In this document: piece by piece, positions 1 to 10,273 of the stretch
Numbering within the stretch: position 1 is the stretch's first letter
Layout of the letters: the number at the start of each line of letters is the position of its first letter
NCBI GenBank assembly: GCA_024275095.1
Contig: JAJRZV010000006.1
Location: 1-23,444, forward strand
Origin: a bacterium
GTDB lineage: Bacteria; JAJRZV01
Direction of reading: 5' to 3'
DNA: 23,444 bases
Program-made: the position numbers and the translations under genes
Notes under the pieces: generated by a model
Told to the model about the DNA's origin: nothing
The model's input: only the letters and a program-made list of their open reading frames with translations
The model's database searches: none

Positions 1-431
1 TCAAAACGCCTGCCCCTGGAGTGCCAGAGTGTAAAGATGGGCTTAAACTCCATTGCCCCGGGTGAAAATTTCTTTTTTTCTTCGGAGTTGTAAGGATACA
101 TGCTTCCGAAATAAAACGGTGCTGCAACGGAAAGAGAAACAGTGGGCGTAACCCCCACAAACCCCCTGAGGTTCACGGTGCTGAGGGCAGAAAGTATGGG
201 ACTTTCTCCGTTTGCACCTGAATACATCACCGGCTTTTCAATGTATTCATACAGTAAGCTTACGGACCAGTCCCCGGTGGTGAAGCGCCAGGGCCACTCC
301 ACTATCTGAGAGCGGTAAATTGATTGGGGAGGTGAATAGCGAATTACGGAAAAATTGAAGAATAGGAGCGCACCTGTTCCGATTAAGAACGGCAATTTTA
401 ATTTTTTTATAATGGCCGGGAGATGATTCAA
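1..431 (-). CDS. Probable outer-membrane beta-barrel (OmpA-type) protein, N-terminal part
   Basis: The frame is open from the minus-strand start to the window edge, so the 3' end is missing. I chose TTG at 431-429 because it overlaps the upstream stop as TTGA and puts a signal-peptide-like stretch at the very N-terminus ([17 protein letters not shown], about residues 8-25). An ATG at 473-471 is an in-frame alternative that would overlap the upstream gene by 46 bases; neither start has a good ribosome binding site. After the signal, the protein alternates hydrophobic and polar residues rich in aromatics ([15 protein letters not shown], then [20 protein letters not shown]), as in beta-strands of an outer-membrane barrel. 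Barrel/OmpA genes often sit next to TSP3-repeat surface proteins in Myxococcus-like bacteria, and the coupled start supports joint expression. The barrel call is inference from strand pattern and context; an unrelated secreted protein is possible. Confidence 0.5.
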
Positions 432-3400
432 CGCTGCATGTGTTTTTTCAGCATTTTGAGAGGCACCAGGCATAGCAGATAAAGTACTACGAGGGGCATG
501 GTACCGTGATGCCCACCCTCGGAAAGCGCGCAGGATATGCCACCGCCCTTGAGGAGCTGCCCGTCGTCCCTGGGATTGTGAGGGTCGGAATTGTCCTGTA
601 ATACCTCAACACCGTCGCTGACCCCTCCGCCGTCCGTGTCCGCCTGAAAAGGATCAGTGAGGCTCACGTTTTTCTCGAATCCATCCTCGAGGCCGTCTCC
701 GTCGCTGTCCGTATCGCGGTAATTCCCCTTACCGTCCTTGTCCACGTCCTCGTATCCTTCTTCGGCGTCGGTGAGACCGTCGTTATCACTATCCGTGTCA
801 AGGGCATCTATGACCTTGTCTCCGTCGCTGTCAACCGGGTTACCGCCGTTGGTCTCCTGGTAGTCATTTATTACGTCGCCGTCCGAGTCTGCATTTCGTG
901 GATCAGTTCCAAGCTGAATTTCCACGTATGTGAGCAACCCGTCTTTGTCAAAGTCATCGTCGTCGGGATCGTTAGGATCGGTTTCTCCTGCGTCTATTTT
1001 TCCATTTGCGTTGAGGTCTTCCAGCCCGTCAGGGGCACCTCCACCGTCTGTATCAGGGTTGTTGACATCGGTTGTCGTGGAGGGATCGCTGTCAGGAACA
1101 AAATTTGGAGATGCGATGTTGGTGTCGGGATGCGCGGCAGCGAGGGTAATGCCTGCTTCGGTTCCGTCGAGAATTCCGTCGTTGTCGCTGTCCGGGTCAA
1201 GTGGATTGATGAGTCCATCACCGTCGCTGTCGATCAGCTCTTCCTCACCGTCCAGCAATCCGTCATCGTCGGTATCAGCATCGTATGGGTTTGTCCCGTA
1301 GATGTTCTCCAGGGCATTGGTGAGACCGTCCCAGTCACTGTCGTCATCGTTGGGATCATTGGGATCCGTTTCGCCCGCGTCCACGCGGCCGTTGATGTTT
1401 TTGTCCTCTTCACCGTCGCTGACCCCTCCGCCGTCCGTGTCCACGTTAAGGGGATCAGTTGTTGTGGAGGGGTCCTGGTCGGGCACGAAGCTGGGAGATG
1501 TCTGGTCCGTGTCCGGATGGGCGGTTGCGGCCGTGATACCCGCCTCCGTGCCATCCATGAGTCCGTCGTTATCGCTGTCGGGATCACACGCGTTGATCAG
1601 GCCATCGCCGTCGCTGTCTGCATTCCAGGCAGGTTCACTGCCGTCAATAACCCCGTCGTCATCCGAGTCTGCATCCGTTGCGGAAAGGCATGCGTATAGA
1701 TTTTCCTGGGCGTTGGTGAGACCGTCCCAGTCGCCATCGTCGTCGTTGGGATCATTGGGATCCGTTTCGCCCGCGTCAAGGCGACCATTCTGATTGCGGT
1801 CCTCTTCTCCGTCTATAACCCCACCACCATCCGTATCTGCAACAAGGTAATTCGTTGTGGTGGAGGGGTCTTCATCAGGTACAAAATTGGGGGATGTCTG
1901 GTCAGTGTCGGGATTTGCAACAGCGGCCGTGATACCCGCCTCCGTGCCGTCCATGAGTCCGTCGTTGTCGCTGTCCGGGTCGAGTGCGTTGATCAGGCCA
2001 TCTGCGTCTGCATCAGTAACACCATCTGCACCGTCCAGCAAGCCGTCGTCATCGGAGTCTGCATCATAGGGATTTGTTCCGTAAATGAGAAATTCTTCAC
2101 GTGATGGAATGCCATCCCAATCTGCATCGTCATCGTAAGGGTTATTGGGATCTGTCTCTCCAGTATCAACTTTGCCGTCCTGGTTTTTATCTTCTTCGCC
2201 ATCGAGGACTCCACCTGAATCGGTATCTGCATTGAGGGGATCAGTTGTTGTGGAGGGGTCCTGGTCGGGCACGAAGCTGGGAGATGTCTGGTCCGTGTCC
2301 GGATGGGCGGTTGCAGCCGTGATACCCGCCTCCGTGCCGTCCATGAGTCCGTCGTTATCGCTGTCGGGATCACACGCGTTGATGATTCCGTCGTAGTCCG
2401 AGTCCTCGTACCAGTATTGTTCACTTCCGTCAATGATTCCATCGTCATCCGAGTCTGCATCGGTTGGTGAGAGGCATCCTGTGGCTGTTTCGTCGTCGTC
2501 GGTTATACCGTCTCCATCGGTATCCAGATCTCCCACTTCGAACGAAACGATGTTTGTATAAAATCGGTTGATACCGAACCCTTCGATGTAGGCTGAGTTT
2601 ACAACCTGGGTGCCCGCACTTACGGAAAGAACGTAAACCTGAAACCGCATCCGATATGTCGCGTTCCCTGGGAAGTTACTGAAGAAAAACGTAACTGCAT
2701 TGGGATAGGAAGGATGGTCATATCCACCTGCATCACCGTCAAGGGGGTCATCCGTGACTGTTGTAAAGCCTGTACCGTAATCAATCTCCAGCGTGCCCGT
2801 TAAATAATCGGTGTAGTCGGGAATGTAGTCCACCACAAGTACATTCCGGGCTGGTGCATTGCTCGAGTTGGACAGGATAATGGTGTATGTCACCGGCATT
2901 CCGGGTTCTGTGGACGTGAATGACTGGTTCTTCGAGGCGCTCAGCAGCGGCCCCGTAACCGTTATGGAATATGGATTGCTCTGGACGGGAGGAATCTGGT
3001 CACTCTGGAAATTTCCGTAATTGACGATTGTTTCCCCTATGGTTGTTGCAAGTACTACTGCTTGAAAGTAGAAGGATGTGACATCACCCGGGTAGAGCGT
3101 AAAGGGTCCCCATCGAATTTCTCTGTTGAGAGAGTCATAGCTGAACCCTGGAGAGGCTACCCCGTTGAATTCCAGCTCTTCTGGCAGAAGGTCCCACACA
3201 TAGGATGTTGTGGCGGTCTGATTGGTGCTGTAGTTCGTGGCAGTTATTGTGAAGCTCACAACTTCTTCATAAGAAGCTTGTGATTTGTCGGCACTCTTGG
3301 TGAGTTGTACAAATTGCTTGGATACGACGATGGAATCTTCCGGATTGAGGAGATATTCACCGCGGTAATAGCCGGAGCCTTCCCCGTAGATGGTGTAAAC

Positions 3401-5308
3401 ATTGTCGGAGATTGCTCCGGGGAAGTTCACCTCCAGCACAAGGGTGATGGTTTCGTTATCATAGAGAATGTAGTTAAGGTCCCACAGGAGCGTGAGTTCT
3501 CCATCTACAACCTGGGTTGCAGGTTCCACGGCATCCGTCGACCCGTCAGGATAGGTAATCGTGGCTGAGAATGGTACGTACTCGATTTGATCCGAAAATC
3601 TGACGGACAGGTCCACACCGTCGACAGGGGAAAAGTCCCCCGAGCTGACTTGAAGCGTGAGTTGTACGCTTCCGCCCGTGGAAGGTACTGAGTAAGAGTC
3701 CGCACTTAATTCCACCGTGAGAACGGGCTCTAACCAGGCCTGTTCTAAAGGGAGCACGGTGTAGCCCAGGTCGAGGTAGGGAGTACCGCTTCCCGCCACG
3801 TCCGGATTTTCTCCGTAGGATGCGGCAAAAGGGCTCGTGGCAAGAATGTGCGTGCCTGTCAGGTCGAAGTCTCCTGATGGGTCACATACGGTCATCACGT
3901 CCAGTACATCGAGTATATAGGGTCCTGGATCAGCAACTCCGTCACAGTCAATATCAGCTGAATCCCATACTCCGTCACCGTCAAAGTCGAACCAGAACTC
4001 CGTTTCGTTTCGTGTGGGCGTGAGAAACACGTGATTGCCAAACGCGCTGCACGAGGGAACTCCATCGCATGCCGGGGCCCAGGAAATAAATGCTTCATCC
4101 TGCAGGAACACAGTGGGGACAAGAGAAAAGCCCCAGTCATATACAATGGACGCGTGATCCACCGCAGCCATGACCCAGAACGGGAGGTCTCCACTGAGCC
4201 GGGCGGATGATGTAACGGGAAGAAGGTGTCCTGTAACAGCGGAATATGCGGTTACGGACCGGGGAAGCACACTGAAAGTTGCTCCCGTGGTGATGCTGGA
4301 ATCATACGCCGTTACATTGAGTGTTGAGTCGTTTGGATTGTAGATGTATAGCTGTACGTCCCCGTTTACAAATCCCATCACGGGGGTTACATAATCCCGG
4401 CCGTATACCACGTTGGGAATCACGTTGAAAAACCTGGTCTGGAACCCACTCCATCCGACTGAACAACTGGGTCCCCCGGTAATCCATCCCACCTGTACAG
4501 GGCGGGATGACTGAATAATGAAGTTAGACGTGACTGTAATGGGGCTGGATGGACCAGTGGCGTAGTACGTGTCGTTCACGTAACCATTGGTGGAGTATGT
4601 GTCCCCTGCATTCAAAGTCACGGAGCGCGTTTCCGTGCCGTTATCCACAACAATTACTGTATTATCTTCAAACGCCTGTACCTCGACCCACACGTAGAGA
4701 AACGATGCGAACAGGCCCGTGGCACCATCATACATGTCCTCTCCGATTGGAATGGTGAAGTAGTTTCCCGTAGAAAACGCCGACTTGGAATAAATTTCCC
4801 ACGCCCCTCCAATGTACGATTGGTCAGCAGGCCACACGTTGTGGACAACATTGACAGGTCCGCCGGTGCTGATGATCCTGTCACCTCCGTCGTACCTTAT
4901 CGTTGTCCCGCGGGGGTAAGTAGGTACGTAGTCGTTGATACCTGTGCCTGAACCGTCGGATGGTAAGAGCAGGTATTCTCCTTTGTTCATAATGTACGTT
5001 TCGGTGCTGCTTTGTTGGGGGTTAAAAGGATCCAGTTCGTAGCCATCTTCCCAGTGGTCGTAAATGATTTTTTGACCATCCTGCGTGGAGGTGATGGTAA
5101 CCACTGACTTGAAATATGTGGTAATGGTATCCGCACAACTTTCTGCTTCGTTGATGTACTCGAACATGTCCCTGATCTGGCTTTCCCGGCCCAGCACGTA
5201 GTATTCTTGGATTCCGGCGACACCAGCAGCCCATGATGCAGAAGAAATAAGAGAAACGAACATAACAATTGTAGATAATTTTGCGGGGTGCCCCCCTCGT
5301 CCCTTCAC
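428..5308 (-). CDS. Large secreted surface protein with DUF11-like domains and TSP type-3 calcium-binding repeats
   Basis: A 1626-aa extracellular protein. The start is GTG at 5308, with AAGGAG six bases upstream. Residues 1-27 form a signal peptide ([18 protein letters not shown]). Residues 28-660 are beta-rich with the motif YDHWEDGYE (83-91), which I recall from other large DUF11-containing bacterial proteins; the middle resembles IgGFc-binding-like folds only loosely. Two DUF11-like domains follow at about 667-786 ([12 protein letters not shown]) and 787-920 (SASKNQSF). Residues 927-1580 are TSP3 repeats ([19 protein letters not shown]) including four copies of a ~130-aa unit, expected to bind calcium and form a stiff stalk. 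The tail has GGGISC (Cys1593), a hydrophobic stretch (about 1603-1617) and KKHMQR, like a C-terminal sorting signal. Probable role: cell-surface adhesion or structure. Exact function unknown. Confidence 0.85.
1450..1597 (-). repeat. Copy A of a near-identical 148-bp direct repeat
   Basis: By direct reading this segment matches 2236-2383 over 148 bases with two mismatches, while flanking repeat sequence differs clearly. The two copies are 786 bases apart, two repeat units. This suggests recent gene conversion or unit duplication inside the TSP3 array. Confidence 0.9.
2236..2383 (-). repeat. Copy B of a near-identical 148-bp direct repeat
   Basis: Partner of 1450-1597. The two substitutions are at the GCAGCC/GCGGCC and GTGCCG/GTGCCA sites. 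The intervening unit near 1929 is more diverged than these two are from each other, so the homogenisation skips a unit. Confidence 0.9.
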
Positions 5309-7657: not shown

Positions 7658-8965
7658 ATGGCTGAAAAATACGATGTAATTATCGTGGGAGCAGGAGTGG
7701 CAGGTCTTCAACTGGGAGCCCTTCTCGCTCACGATGGAATGAGAACCCTTATCCTTGAAAAATCCAGTCGTGTTGGAGGAAGGGCATTTGTTCTGGAAAA
7801 GGACGGATATGTACTTGATTACGGTATCCACCTTGTCCGTTTCGGTCCTAAATCAGCCATTGCCAGGGTGATAAAGCACATTGGGCGACACGTGGATTTT
7901 GTGGATGTGGGTACTTCTTATCTGCTGGATGAAGATGGTCGCAGAAAGGTGTTCCCCACAAAGCCGATCACATTTCTCAAAACGCGCATGTTTTCATTTT
8001 CGGATATGATCACCGCACTGAAAACCATGGCAAGACTTCGACGTGGTCAGTTTGACCATTTACTTGAGACGCCTGTGAAGGAATGGATGGACGAAAATGG
8101 TTTCAAAGGAGGGTTAAGACGGTATTTTCACCTGGTCTCTGCATCCATGCTCGTTTGTCCCTTTATTGATAAAGCATCAACCGGCGAACTTCTCAGAAAT
8201 GTGCAGAAGGTTTTGAGAAGGCGCATCTCCGTGATGTATCCGAGAGGTGGATGGAAACCCCTTTTCAACGCCTGGATCGAAACTGTAAATTCCAACGGCC
8301 GCATCCTTACAGACTCTCCAGTAAAAGAAGTACGCATCAAAAATGGACGTGCCACAGGCGTGGTGATAGAAGATGGTCGGGAATTCGAAGCAGAAAAAGT
8401 TGTGGTTGCTGTTCCGGTTCAACACATGTTTTCTTTCCTCGATGAAAAGGAATTTCCCCCGGAATTTGTCAGTATGTGCAAGAATTTACGGCCTACTGCG
8501 GGTGTATTCATAGATTACTGTATCAAAGGGAAAATTTCTGACTCGACCGGGCTGTGGTACATATGGGATCCCATGTGTTTTGGCCTGTTCACATCGAACC
8601 TGGAGCCTGCACTTGCTCCTCCAGAGGGTCAGATTCTTACGTTTTTCTATCCGCGTCCCGTGGAGGAGATGGAAGACCCGGAAAAAGCCAAACAGCGCAT
8701 TGATGAACTTGAAAAGGCAGTTTTTAATCTGTTCCCCGAGCTTCAGGACAGGATTGCATGGCGTCGAGCAGCCCACCTGACAATGGTTGATGGAGTGGAG
8801 ATTAACATACACCAGCACCGTTTCAAGCGTCCCGGTTTCCGTGCCCCGAACATCCCCAACCTCTTCCTGGTAGGCGACTCCACCGCCGGGGATGGGGCAG
8901 GCGGCGATGTAGGGCATGAATCGGTGTTGGAGTGTTATTCGGAGATGATGGGTAGGGAGGTGTAG
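7658..8965 (+). CDS. FAD-dependent oxidoreductase, phytoene desaturase/amine oxidase-like
   Basis: A 435-aa flavoprotein. The N-terminal dinucleotide-binding motif is VIIVGAGVAGLQLG (about residues 7-20), followed by the acidic strand end LILEK (E35) and RVGGRA (38-43), the arrangement of the phytoene desaturase, protoporphyrinogen oxidase and amine oxidase superfamily. The C-terminal FAD signature is NLFLVGDSTAGDGAGGDVGHES, near 404-425. Length and layout fit the family. Substrate cannot be read from sequence; carotenoid-like or other isoprenoid or amine substrates are all possible, and no other carotenoid gene is in the window. The ATG at 7658 follows GAGGTGAG at a suitable distance. Part of the code for the C-terminal motif recurs at 9132-9151. 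Confidence 0.8.
   Translation: MAEKYDVIIVGAGVAGLQLGALLAHDGMRTLILEKSSRVGGRAFVLEKDGYVLDYGIHLVRFGPKSAIARVIKHIGRHVDFVDVGTSYLLDEDGRRKVFPTKPITFLKTRMFSFSDMITALKTMARLRRGQFDHLLETPVKEWMDENGFKGGLRRYFHLVSASMLVCPFIDKASTGELLRNVQKVLRRRISVMYPRGGWKPLFNAWIETVNSNGRILTDSPVKEVRIKNGRATGVVIEDGREFEAEKVVVAVPVQHMFSFLDEKEFPPEFVSMCKNLRPTAGVFIDYCIKGKISDSTGLWYIWDPMCFGLFTSNLEPALAPPEGQILTFFYPRPVEEMEDPEKAKQRIDELEKAVFNLFPELQDRIAWRRAAHLTMVDGVEINIHQHRFKRPGFRAPNIPNLFLVGDSTAGDGAGGDVGHESVLECYSEMMGREV
8901..8920 (+). repeat. 20-bp sequence repeated 231 bases downstream (copy within the oxidoreductase gene)
   Basis: GCGGCGATGTAGGGCATGAA encodes the GGDVGHE part of the FAD signature. It recurs with one mismatch at 9132-9151. Confidence 0.8.
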
Positions 8966-8986
8966 AGGGAGATGTGTACGGAGCCG

Positions 8987-9003
8987 CCTGCTGTATGAGC
9001 AGG
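8987..9003. repeat. Perfect hairpin
   Basis: CCTGCT (8987-8992), loop GTATG, then AGCAGG (8998-9003): a six-base-pair stem. No T-run follows, so it is not a standard terminator. Confidence 0.6.
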
Positions 9004-9008
9004 GGGTA

Positions 9009-9021
9009 CTGCGTAGCGCAG
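9009..9021. repeat. Perfect hairpin
   Basis: CTGCG, loop TAG, then CGCAG: a five-base-pair GC-rich stem next to the preceding hairpin. An outer arm TACTGC (9007-9012) can alternatively pair with GCAGTA (9026-9031). Confidence 0.55.
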
Positions 9022-9042
9022 CGGAGCAGTAGATATGAAGGA

Positions 9043-9129
9043 GGCGCGCTATGATTTTTGATTTGTTAGAAGGGTATGAGTATTTGGGTTATGCGTGAGG
9101 AGTGGAGTGGTGTATGGGGGTAGCGCGCC
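9043..9129. repeat. 9-bp perfect inverted repeat enclosing 69 bp
   Basis: GGCGCGCTA (9043-9051) and TAGCGCGCC (9121-9129) are exact reverse complements. They enclose a micro-ORF whose start codon begins at the last base of the left arm. The layout could be a miniature mobile element remnant or a structured RNA. No transposase or flanking target duplication is evident. Confidence 0.65.
9051..9098 (+). CDS. Possible 15-codon micro-ORF
   Basis: It encodes MIFDLLEGYEYLGYA. A perfect AAGGAGG (9038-9044) lies six bases before the ATG, better than most gene starts in this window. I do not recognise the peptide. It may be a real small protein, a leader peptide for the downstream phosphoesterase gene, or a chance ORF in decayed sequence. 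It sits between the arms of the 9043-9129 inverted repeat, so the arm could mask or expose the start codon. Confidence 0.25.
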   Translation: MIFDLLEGYEYLGYA

Positions 9130-9131
9130 GG

Positions 9132-9151
9132 GCGGCGATGTGGGGCATGAA
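9132..9151 (+). repeat. 20-bp sequence matching the end of the upstream oxidoreductase gene
   Basis: GCGGCGATGTGGGGCATGAA matches 8901-8920 with one mismatch but lies outside any gene. It suggests a small duplication or a decayed gene end. Confidence 0.8.
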
Positions 9152-9184
9152 GAATAAAAGAAACCGTCCAGGGAGCATTATTTA

Positions 9185-10273
9185 ATGTTGTGGAATTCGA
9201 ATGCAGATAGAAAAATCAAAATTGTTCTCAGTGATCTTCACATGTGTGGTGGCAGAATTCTTCCTGACGGAAATATTAATTATGCAGAAGATTTTCTGTA
9301 CGATCGCGAACTTGTGGATTTTCTTCATTACATTCAGGAAGAGTACAATGGCTTTGATATAGAAATTATCATTAACGGTGATTTCGTAGACTTCCTCAAA
9401 ACGGTAGGCGGTCTTCAGTACATCAGTGACATTCCCAAAGAAGCAGTGTATTCGGCACTGGAGCGAATAATTAATGGTCACAGTGAAGTATTTAAGGCGC
9501 TCAGAGATTTTATGAACTCAGGCCAGCATCATCTCACCATCATCGTGGGAAATCACGACCAGCCGCTTCTTTGTCCGGATGTGCAGGCTCGATTGAAGGA
9601 AGTTATTAGCGAACGAGTACGTTTTGTTCCTCTTTATTATCAATTTGAAGGTGTATTCGTTGCTCACGGGCACCAGTACGAACTTATACATCGCTTTAAT
9701 GTGCACAAGTTATGGGTAAGGGATACGAATGGAAGAGAAGTCCTGAACATGCCGTGGGGCAGTTATTTTGTGGTTGAATTCCTCAATCCTTTGAAAAAAG
9801 AGAAACCCGTGATAGATCGGGTTAAACCGTTTAAAAATTTCCTTAAGTGGGGTCTCTACTTTGAAACATTTTACACGTTAAAAACTCTTGTCAGGCTGGT
9901 GTGGTTTTACATAAGAAACCGTTTTTTCACATCTGATCCTATGCGCCGACGCAAATTTGCTGCAGGATTTTCTGATCTCATGGATGCGATCCTGCACCGA
10001 ACCCTCGAGGCCAACGCAAAACGCATACTCAAACGAGAGGACATTCACACTGTGGTTTTCGGTCACAGCCATATACCCCTTTTTCGTATTTTTCACGGCA
10101 AGCAGTATTTCAATACAGGCACATGGACGGAAAATATCAGCCTTGATATGACAGATTTTGGACGATCCAACCCCATGTCATTTTTACTTTTCCGGTACGT
10201 GGATGGACGCCCCGTGGGTTCTCTTCTCAGGTGGCGCGGTGAGTACCGTCCAGTAGAAGAGATGCTTCCCTAA
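9185..10273 (+). CDS. Calcineurin-like metallophosphoesterase (LpxH-like)
   Basis: A 362-aa phosphoesterase with the full two-metal motif set: SDLH (D17, H19), NGDFVDF (D66), GNHD (N123, H124), HGH (161-163) and GHSH (293-296). Family members hydrolyse phosphomonoesters, phosphodiesters or pyrophosphates. The SDLH and GDFVDF context resembles LpxH, the UDP-2,3-diacylglucosamine pyrophosphatase of lipid A synthesis, but the protein is about 120 residues longer. The extra part includes an aromatic and basic stretch (about 215-250, FETFYTLKTLVRLVWFYIRNRFF) that could be an amphipathic or membrane-contacting helix pair. The ATG at 9185 has only a modest GGGAG upstream. It is 338 bases before mraZ, so it is not clearly part of that operon. 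Function in lipid A synthesis is a guess. Confidence 0.8.
   Translation: MLWNSNADRKIKIVLSDLHMCGGRILPDGNINYAEDFLYDRELVDFLHYIQEEYNGFDIEIIINGDFVDFLKTVGGLQYISDIPKEAVYSALERIINGHSEVFKALRDFMNSGQHHLTIIVGNHDQPLLCPDVQARLKEVISERVRFVPLYYQFEGVFVAHGHQYELIHRFNVHKLWVRDTNGREVLNMPWGSYFVVEFLNPLKKEKPVIDRVKPFKNFLKWGLYFETFYTLKTLVRLVWFYIRNRFFTSDPMRRRKFAAGFSDLMDAILHRTLEANAKRILKREDIHTVVFGHSHIPLFRIFHGKQYFNTGTWTENISLDMTDFGRSNPMSFLLFRYVDGRPVGSLLRWRGEYRPVEEMLP

Follow-up and report, generated by a model that had tools for sequence, protein, structure and literature searches.

The closest described counterparts of the locus analyzed here are the rtT repeats and RtT RNA of Escherichia coli tRNA operons (Rfam RF00391), which Bosl and Kersten are said to have described in 1991. 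To our knowledge, rtT repeats have been known for decades without an accepted origin, and our search found no papers on their origin or mobility. According to passages from two papers, RtT RNA is released from the transcripts of tyrT and other tRNA operons and has a possible role in the stringent response (PMC4986893, PMC2965389), and some rtT-like sequences are likened to BIMEs in a passage of the latter (PMC2965389). The passages of the rtT literature at hand mention neither an antisense feature nor a protein-gene site, which in itself is no proof of novelty. We examined the E. coli units behind tRNA-Tyr, tRNA-Lys, tRNA-Ser, and tRNA-Arg; the first three of these loci are called RtT (RF00391) by Rfam, and one E. 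coli strain used for comparison has no rtT annotated. In these E. coli units, the gene end is followed by a stretch that in some cases resembles a terminator, then by an antisense copy and hairpins; the unit closes with a GCGAGCGAAGCGAGT-like sequence, after which the 3' end of the tRNA is repeated directly. The distance from the junction to the antisense copy in the four units is 78, 68, 77, and 79 nt. In E. coli K-12 (L215, L217, L221), the 3' part of the tRNA has an antisense copy ~51-59 nt downstream of lysQ, serX, and argV (p 0.015 for argV), the serX unit being tandem with a period of 181; a significant hit for serV was discounted, as it lies within the adjacent argV tRNA.

The window, i.e., the whole 23,444-nt stretch of DNA that was analyzed, contains an intergenic island at positions 8966-9184. 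We propose that this island is probably an RtT-like insertion unit that copies the end of its host gene, in this case behind a gene encoding a protein.

Anatomy of the intergenic island

The island separates two genes of the plus strand, an upstream gene for an FAD-dependent oxidoreductase of the amino oxidase family (7658..8965; Pfam PF01593, E=1e-25) and a downstream gene for a calcineurin-like phosphoesterase (9185..10273; PF00149, E=2e-6). The two (7658-10273) form a gene pair that is conserved in a distant family (L005, L063, L064). The same two genes are found in the same order, abutting or nearly so and with no island between them, in three genomes that represent three genera of one other family (G019, G167, and G306); thus, the island constitutes extra DNA in the present lineage, the source genome being the sole one of its phylum among the genomes compared. 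The C-terminus GAGGDVGHES..ECY of the oxidoreductase is conserved in distant homologues from these three genomes and from G043, and therefore the gene end is native and its coding sequence extends to position 8965. Searches for DNA relatives of the island among 59 genomes and for relatives of the phosphoesterase in the genome-contig collection returned none, and a comparison of the island with phages, plasmids, and viral contigs gave nothing significant.

The strongest feature of the island, missed in an earlier note on this DNA, is a 21-bp direct repeat, GGCGGCGATGTAGGGCATGAA. Its native copy D1 (8900..8920) encodes GGDVGHE near the end of the oxidoreductase gene, whereas the second copy D2 (9131..9151) lies 231 bp away in the same codon phase and is identical at 20/21 positions, with one silent difference; the 3' end of the oxidoreductase gene is the sequence that is copied in the island. 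The repeat scores 37, compared with 31 for the best of 1000 shuffles, and within the window it is the sole repeat of this strength at a distance of up to 1 kb outside the repeat protein at 428-5308. The latter gene (minus strand) encodes a 1626-aa protein with DUF11 and TSP3-like repeats of ~390 bp at the DNA level and accounts for all other strong direct repeats of the window.

Downstream of D1, positions 8921..8982 comprise the native end of the coding sequence with its stop codon (to 8965) followed by 17 nt. The next 9 nt, GCCGCCTGC (8983..8991), are an antisense copy of the gene end, complementary to the spot GCAGGCGGC in the gene (8897..8905), which spans the start of D1; the antisense copy is located 83 nt from the D1 start. 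It opens the unit body, termed E (8983..9130), which measures 148 nt from the antisense copy to D2. An equally good antisense copy appeared in none of 300 dinucleotide shuffles; among 20000 mononucleotide shuffles of the body, a 9-mer antisense match was found at any position in 0.05% and at 146-152 nt from D2 in none. All p-values given here stem from exploratory searches and are uncorrected for the search path; a stronger argument is that the spacing agrees among independent loci as well as with E. coli.

The antisense copy overlaps a hairpin, CCTGCT-gtatg-AGCAGG (8987..9003), and a small hairpin stands beside the antisense copy in other units as well. A second hairpin, TACTGC...GCAGTA (9007..9031), with the inner stem CTGCG-tag-CGCAG (9009-9021), runs into the core sequence GCGGAGCAGTAGATATGAAGGAG (9021..9043), 20/23 positions of which are identical to the unit behind tRNA-Leu(gag). 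The remaining part of the body holds the 9-bp inverted repeat GGCGCGCTA/TAGCGCGCC (9043-9051/9121-9129), with 69 nt between its arms, and the 15-codon ORF MIFDLLEGYEYLGYA (9051..9098, plus strand) with AAGGAGG in front, which is probably fortuitous. The two hairpins, the inverted repeat, and the ORF had been recorded in the earlier note and were all found again at the positions given above. Its further statement, that the island holds much more structure than the other gaps, is only partly right. The island does stand out by a G-rich, C-poor composition (G 0.40, C 0.13), but the structure itself is only mildly unusual when compared with shuffles and window tiles: an inverted repeat of at least 9 bp occurs in 10 of 500 island shuffles and in 23 of 319 window tiles, and 81 of the 319 tiles hold at least as many short hairpins as the island. 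The predicted RNA fold is not significant either (z -1.35 for 8966-9184 and -0.29 for 9040-9184), and the comparison of the island with Rfam at gathering and relaxed thresholds gave no match. In addition, an imperfect tandem, AGGGAGGTGTAG/AGGGAGATGTGTA (8954-8978), spans the stop codon of the oxidoreductase gene and is very G-rich, with a GC skew of 0.87.

Units of similar build in the source genome

We scanned about 1.53-1.55 Mb of the 2.45 Mb source genome for direct repeats that enclose a short spacer and identified six further units, all at tRNA genes, along with coding repeats and a separate hairpin family. The units are located at tRNA-Leu(gag), tRNA-His, tRNA-Arg(ccg), tRNA-Leu(caa), and tRNA-Arg(tct), and at tRNA-Pro(tgg) on its 5' side. 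The unit periods range from 208 to 237, the window unit having 231. Among the direct repeats with a non-coding spacer that lie 120-330 bp apart, five of seven are of this kind (periods 208, 208, 221, 231, and 234), and two more units have periods of 211 and 237. The unit body contains an antisense copy of the junction at the repeat start in five of the six siblings and in the window, and this match is supported by shuffling in each of these six units (p <= 0.007). The distance from the antisense copy to D2 is 148 nt in the window and 150, 150, 150, 130, and 129 nt in the siblings, and the distance from the junction to the antisense copy is 68-87 nt in the units of this genome. The units have in common the hairpins and a core of the form GCGGAGC...ATATRA; GAGCGGAGCGA and CATATAA are likewise common to other units. 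Repeats and a GCGGAGC core are present in the tRNA-Pro unit (L088), which lacks a clear antisense copy and thus fits only partly; at this locus (1132-1398; C13), the 5' flank of tRNA-Pro(tgg) and the first 15 nt of the tRNA form an exact 59-bp duplication with a G-rich hairpin insert between the two copies.

The antisense half of the unit is also found alone at other tRNAs, and units that lack a direct copy are no rarer than those that have one. In the source genome, a significant antisense copy of the tRNA's own 3' part was detected within 115 nt downstream for 12 of 30 tRNAs and upstream for none of the 30; one of the 12, behind tRNA-Thr, was discounted because it falls within the following tRNA gene, and tRNA-Arg(tct) qualifies but was left out of the 30 because its upstream sequence is lacking. 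Overall, roughly one in three of the tRNA genes examined is followed by this build. Most of these antisense copies fall between +46 and +72, with a small hairpin and a GAGCG-rich core downstream of them. The best match of the antisense copy is its own tRNA in 8 of 13 cases, and the own tRNA ranks second or third in 4 of 13.

The set is recognized by its architecture and short core, not by overall sequence. No further copy of the whole island was found by DNA similarity in its own genome, and the island is not multi-copy in the manner of MITE or REP sequences. In the search for genome copies proposed in the earlier note, plain similarity finds one copy, and architecture and core reveal further units. 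The earlier idea of a miniature mobile or palindromic repeat element comes close, since the island belongs to a genome-wide set of common build, but the members of this set are not united by overall sequence. The unit sequences are too different for a similarity search to join them, and thus the case for common descent from one mobile sequence draws on short motifs and spacing. The oxidoreductase gene is the one protein-coding host among the members found, and an HMM of the core identified no further member at a protein gene. Across 386 genomes, the core pattern gave only two hits behind tRNAs, both in the source genome, and its matches elsewhere look like chance. Rfam at gathering and relaxed thresholds detected nothing credible beyond tRNA in the source genome.

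The separate hairpin family mentioned above is a second repeat family, in which a GC-rich hairpin is followed by AGGGATAGGGCGGG(C/T)GGG(A/G)AATATAA, with the tail sequence sometimes on both sides. It has six copies in 1.5 Mb, with loci at L091 7049-7141, L130 (minus strand, ~16764), L160 (minus strand, ~2232), L167 (~14138), and L176 (minus strand, ~14174); minus-strand positions are counted on the reverse complement.

Proposed origin of the island and alternative explanations

The units, most of which stand at tRNA genes, share an observed arrangement: each starts from the native gene end (D1), carries an antisense copy (9-28 nt) of the junction where D1 begins at about 70-85 nt from the D1 start, and continues with one or two small hairpins with the GCGGAGC...ATATRA core and a further stretch; in about half of the units, 20-27 nt of the gene end are then repeated directly (D2). 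We propose that such a unit probably entered as a small, non-autonomous insertion that depends for its placing on the 3' end of a gene and copies it. Since an insertion of this type copies the gene 3' end, the gene would stay intact, as is the case for elements integrating at tRNA ends. D1 and D2 would thus represent junction repeats, and the antisense copy could allow pairing between the gene end and one strand of the unit, thereby forming a folded single-stranded recombination site or serving as a guide. Once inserted, the unit probably forms part of the transcript as its 3' tail and is predicted to leave the proteins unaffected.

The main rival, which we regard as unlikely, is a cis-acting RNA element. 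According to this explanation, the antisense copy and D2 act within the 3' tail of the transcript: by pairing with either the gene end or D2, the antisense copy would steer 3'-end processing or stability. The copies would be of local origin and maintained by selection. This explanation agrees with the fact that the antisense copy matches the neighbouring gene and not a fixed sequence, with the spacing of ~68-87 nt common to E. coli and this genome, with the pairing of GCCGCC and the GGCGGC of D2 in the predicted fold, and with the release of RtT RNA from tRNA-operon transcripts as reported in passages of two papers (PMC2965389, PMC4986893). However, the folding energy of the window unit and of most siblings is no better than that of shuffles, a protein-coding host gene needs no processing of the tRNA type, and the copied D2 together with the shared core suggests arrival by insertion. 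A relic or miniature RNA-guided transposon, with the antisense copy or D2 as its guide, would account for gene-matching segments at both unit ends and for a unit that begins about 70-87 nt from the matched site; nevertheless, it is very improbable, as no transposase was seen near the units looked at, the length of D2 is variable (20-76), and the genome has no IS110 gene of the bridge-RNA type. Searches of the genome (MAG completeness 97%) gave no IS110 recombinase, no reverse transcriptase, and no integrase besides XerC/XerD; matches to the tyrosine-recombinase family were limited to two genes, which look like xerC and xerD by their context. This outcome also counts against the insertion reading that we prefer, as do the shortness of the antisense copy in the island (9 nt), the single protein gene among the hosts, and the partial fit of the tRNA-Pro unit. 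An IS110 origin was rejected because there is no IS110 gene, and a diversity-generating or other reverse-transcribed origin because there is no reverse transcriptase gene.

Two further explanations start from coding potential. The coding phase that D2 shares with D1, in which it also encodes GGDVGHE (one silent change), and the preceding frame, which reads GGSAP and loosely resembles homologues, could point to a decayed tandem second oxidoreductase gene with D2 as its last surviving piece. We consider this scarcely credible, given that similarity to the oxidoreductase gene is absent outside the 21 bp, the codon-usage signal is weak (p 0.065), and the antisense copy, the core, and the equally spaced tRNA siblings would be left unexplained; a six-frame Pfam search for a decayed gene in the island likewise gave nothing. 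The least credible explanation is a leader peptide or attenuator formed by the micro-ORF and the 9-bp stem, i.e., the leader-peptide switch before the phosphoesterase gene that the earlier note had envisaged. The ORF does have a good Shine-Dalgarno match 6 nt before its ATG, and an arm of the stem touches the start codon. However, AAGGAG belongs to the core shared with the tRNA-Leu(gag) unit, where no comparable ORF follows it, and the 9-bp stem is particular to the window copy and not kept in the other units; thus, the micro-ORF and the stem look incidental. Moreover, no terminator or promoter was found in the island, its fold is ordinary (z -1.35), and it has no Rfam match.

Comparison with RtT and other known systems

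The preferred reading, a gene-end-copying insertion unit, can be set against several described types of elements. REP/BIME and MITE sequences are similarly short, intergenic, and equipped with hairpins, but the units described here have no conserved full-length sequence, and their termini follow the host gene instead of forming a fixed inverted repeat. As in the attP site of CTX phage and the attC sites of integrons, the inverted site copies of the present units are separated by some tens of nt and could pair to give a folded, double-stranded site; however, no filamentous phage or integron genes were seen here, and recombination at the units is hypothetical. The integrative elements of tRNA 3' ends (attL/attR) resemble the present units in leaving the gene end intact and in repeating 20-27 nt of it at the distal boundary, whereas the units here are about 150-230 bp long, contain no genes, and carry an antisense copy of the site, and the only integrase-type genes in the genome are those for XerC/XerD.

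Differences from RtT are seen in the body, which is 129-150 nt here (five siblings and the window) vs. 55-104 nt in E. coli, and in the Rfam model RF00391, which matches the E. coli loci but neither the window (none at E<=5) nor the tested sibling units (none, even at E up to 5-10). Moreover, the source bacterium belongs to a different phylum, and the window unit lies behind a protein gene, its six siblings being located at tRNA genes; its copied end consists of 21 nt of coding sequence. On the other hand, the succession of gene end, antisense copy, hairpins, GAGCG-rich stretch, and direct copy of the gene end is the same in both, as is the occurrence of single or tandem units, and the window unit likewise ends in a direct copy of the 3' end of its gene (8900-8920/9131-9151). 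The recurrence of this build, with a matching spacing, after many tRNA genes in an unrelated bacterium and also after a protein gene suggests one process across phyla, and the origin of rtT thereby becomes a testable question. As a tentative generalization, which we offer as a possibility that is more doubtful than the reading of the island itself, RtT-like units might be tiny mobile elements of several phyla that use base pairing to home to the 3' ends of genes and carry custom antisense and direct copies of their individual sites, with protein genes among the targets and E. coli rtT as the first-noticed case. If RtT-type architecture is defined by an antisense copy about 65-90 nt after the junction, the window unit (83 nt) has it, and the distance from the junction to the antisense copy is 68-79 nt in E. 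coli and 68-87 nt in the genome studied here.
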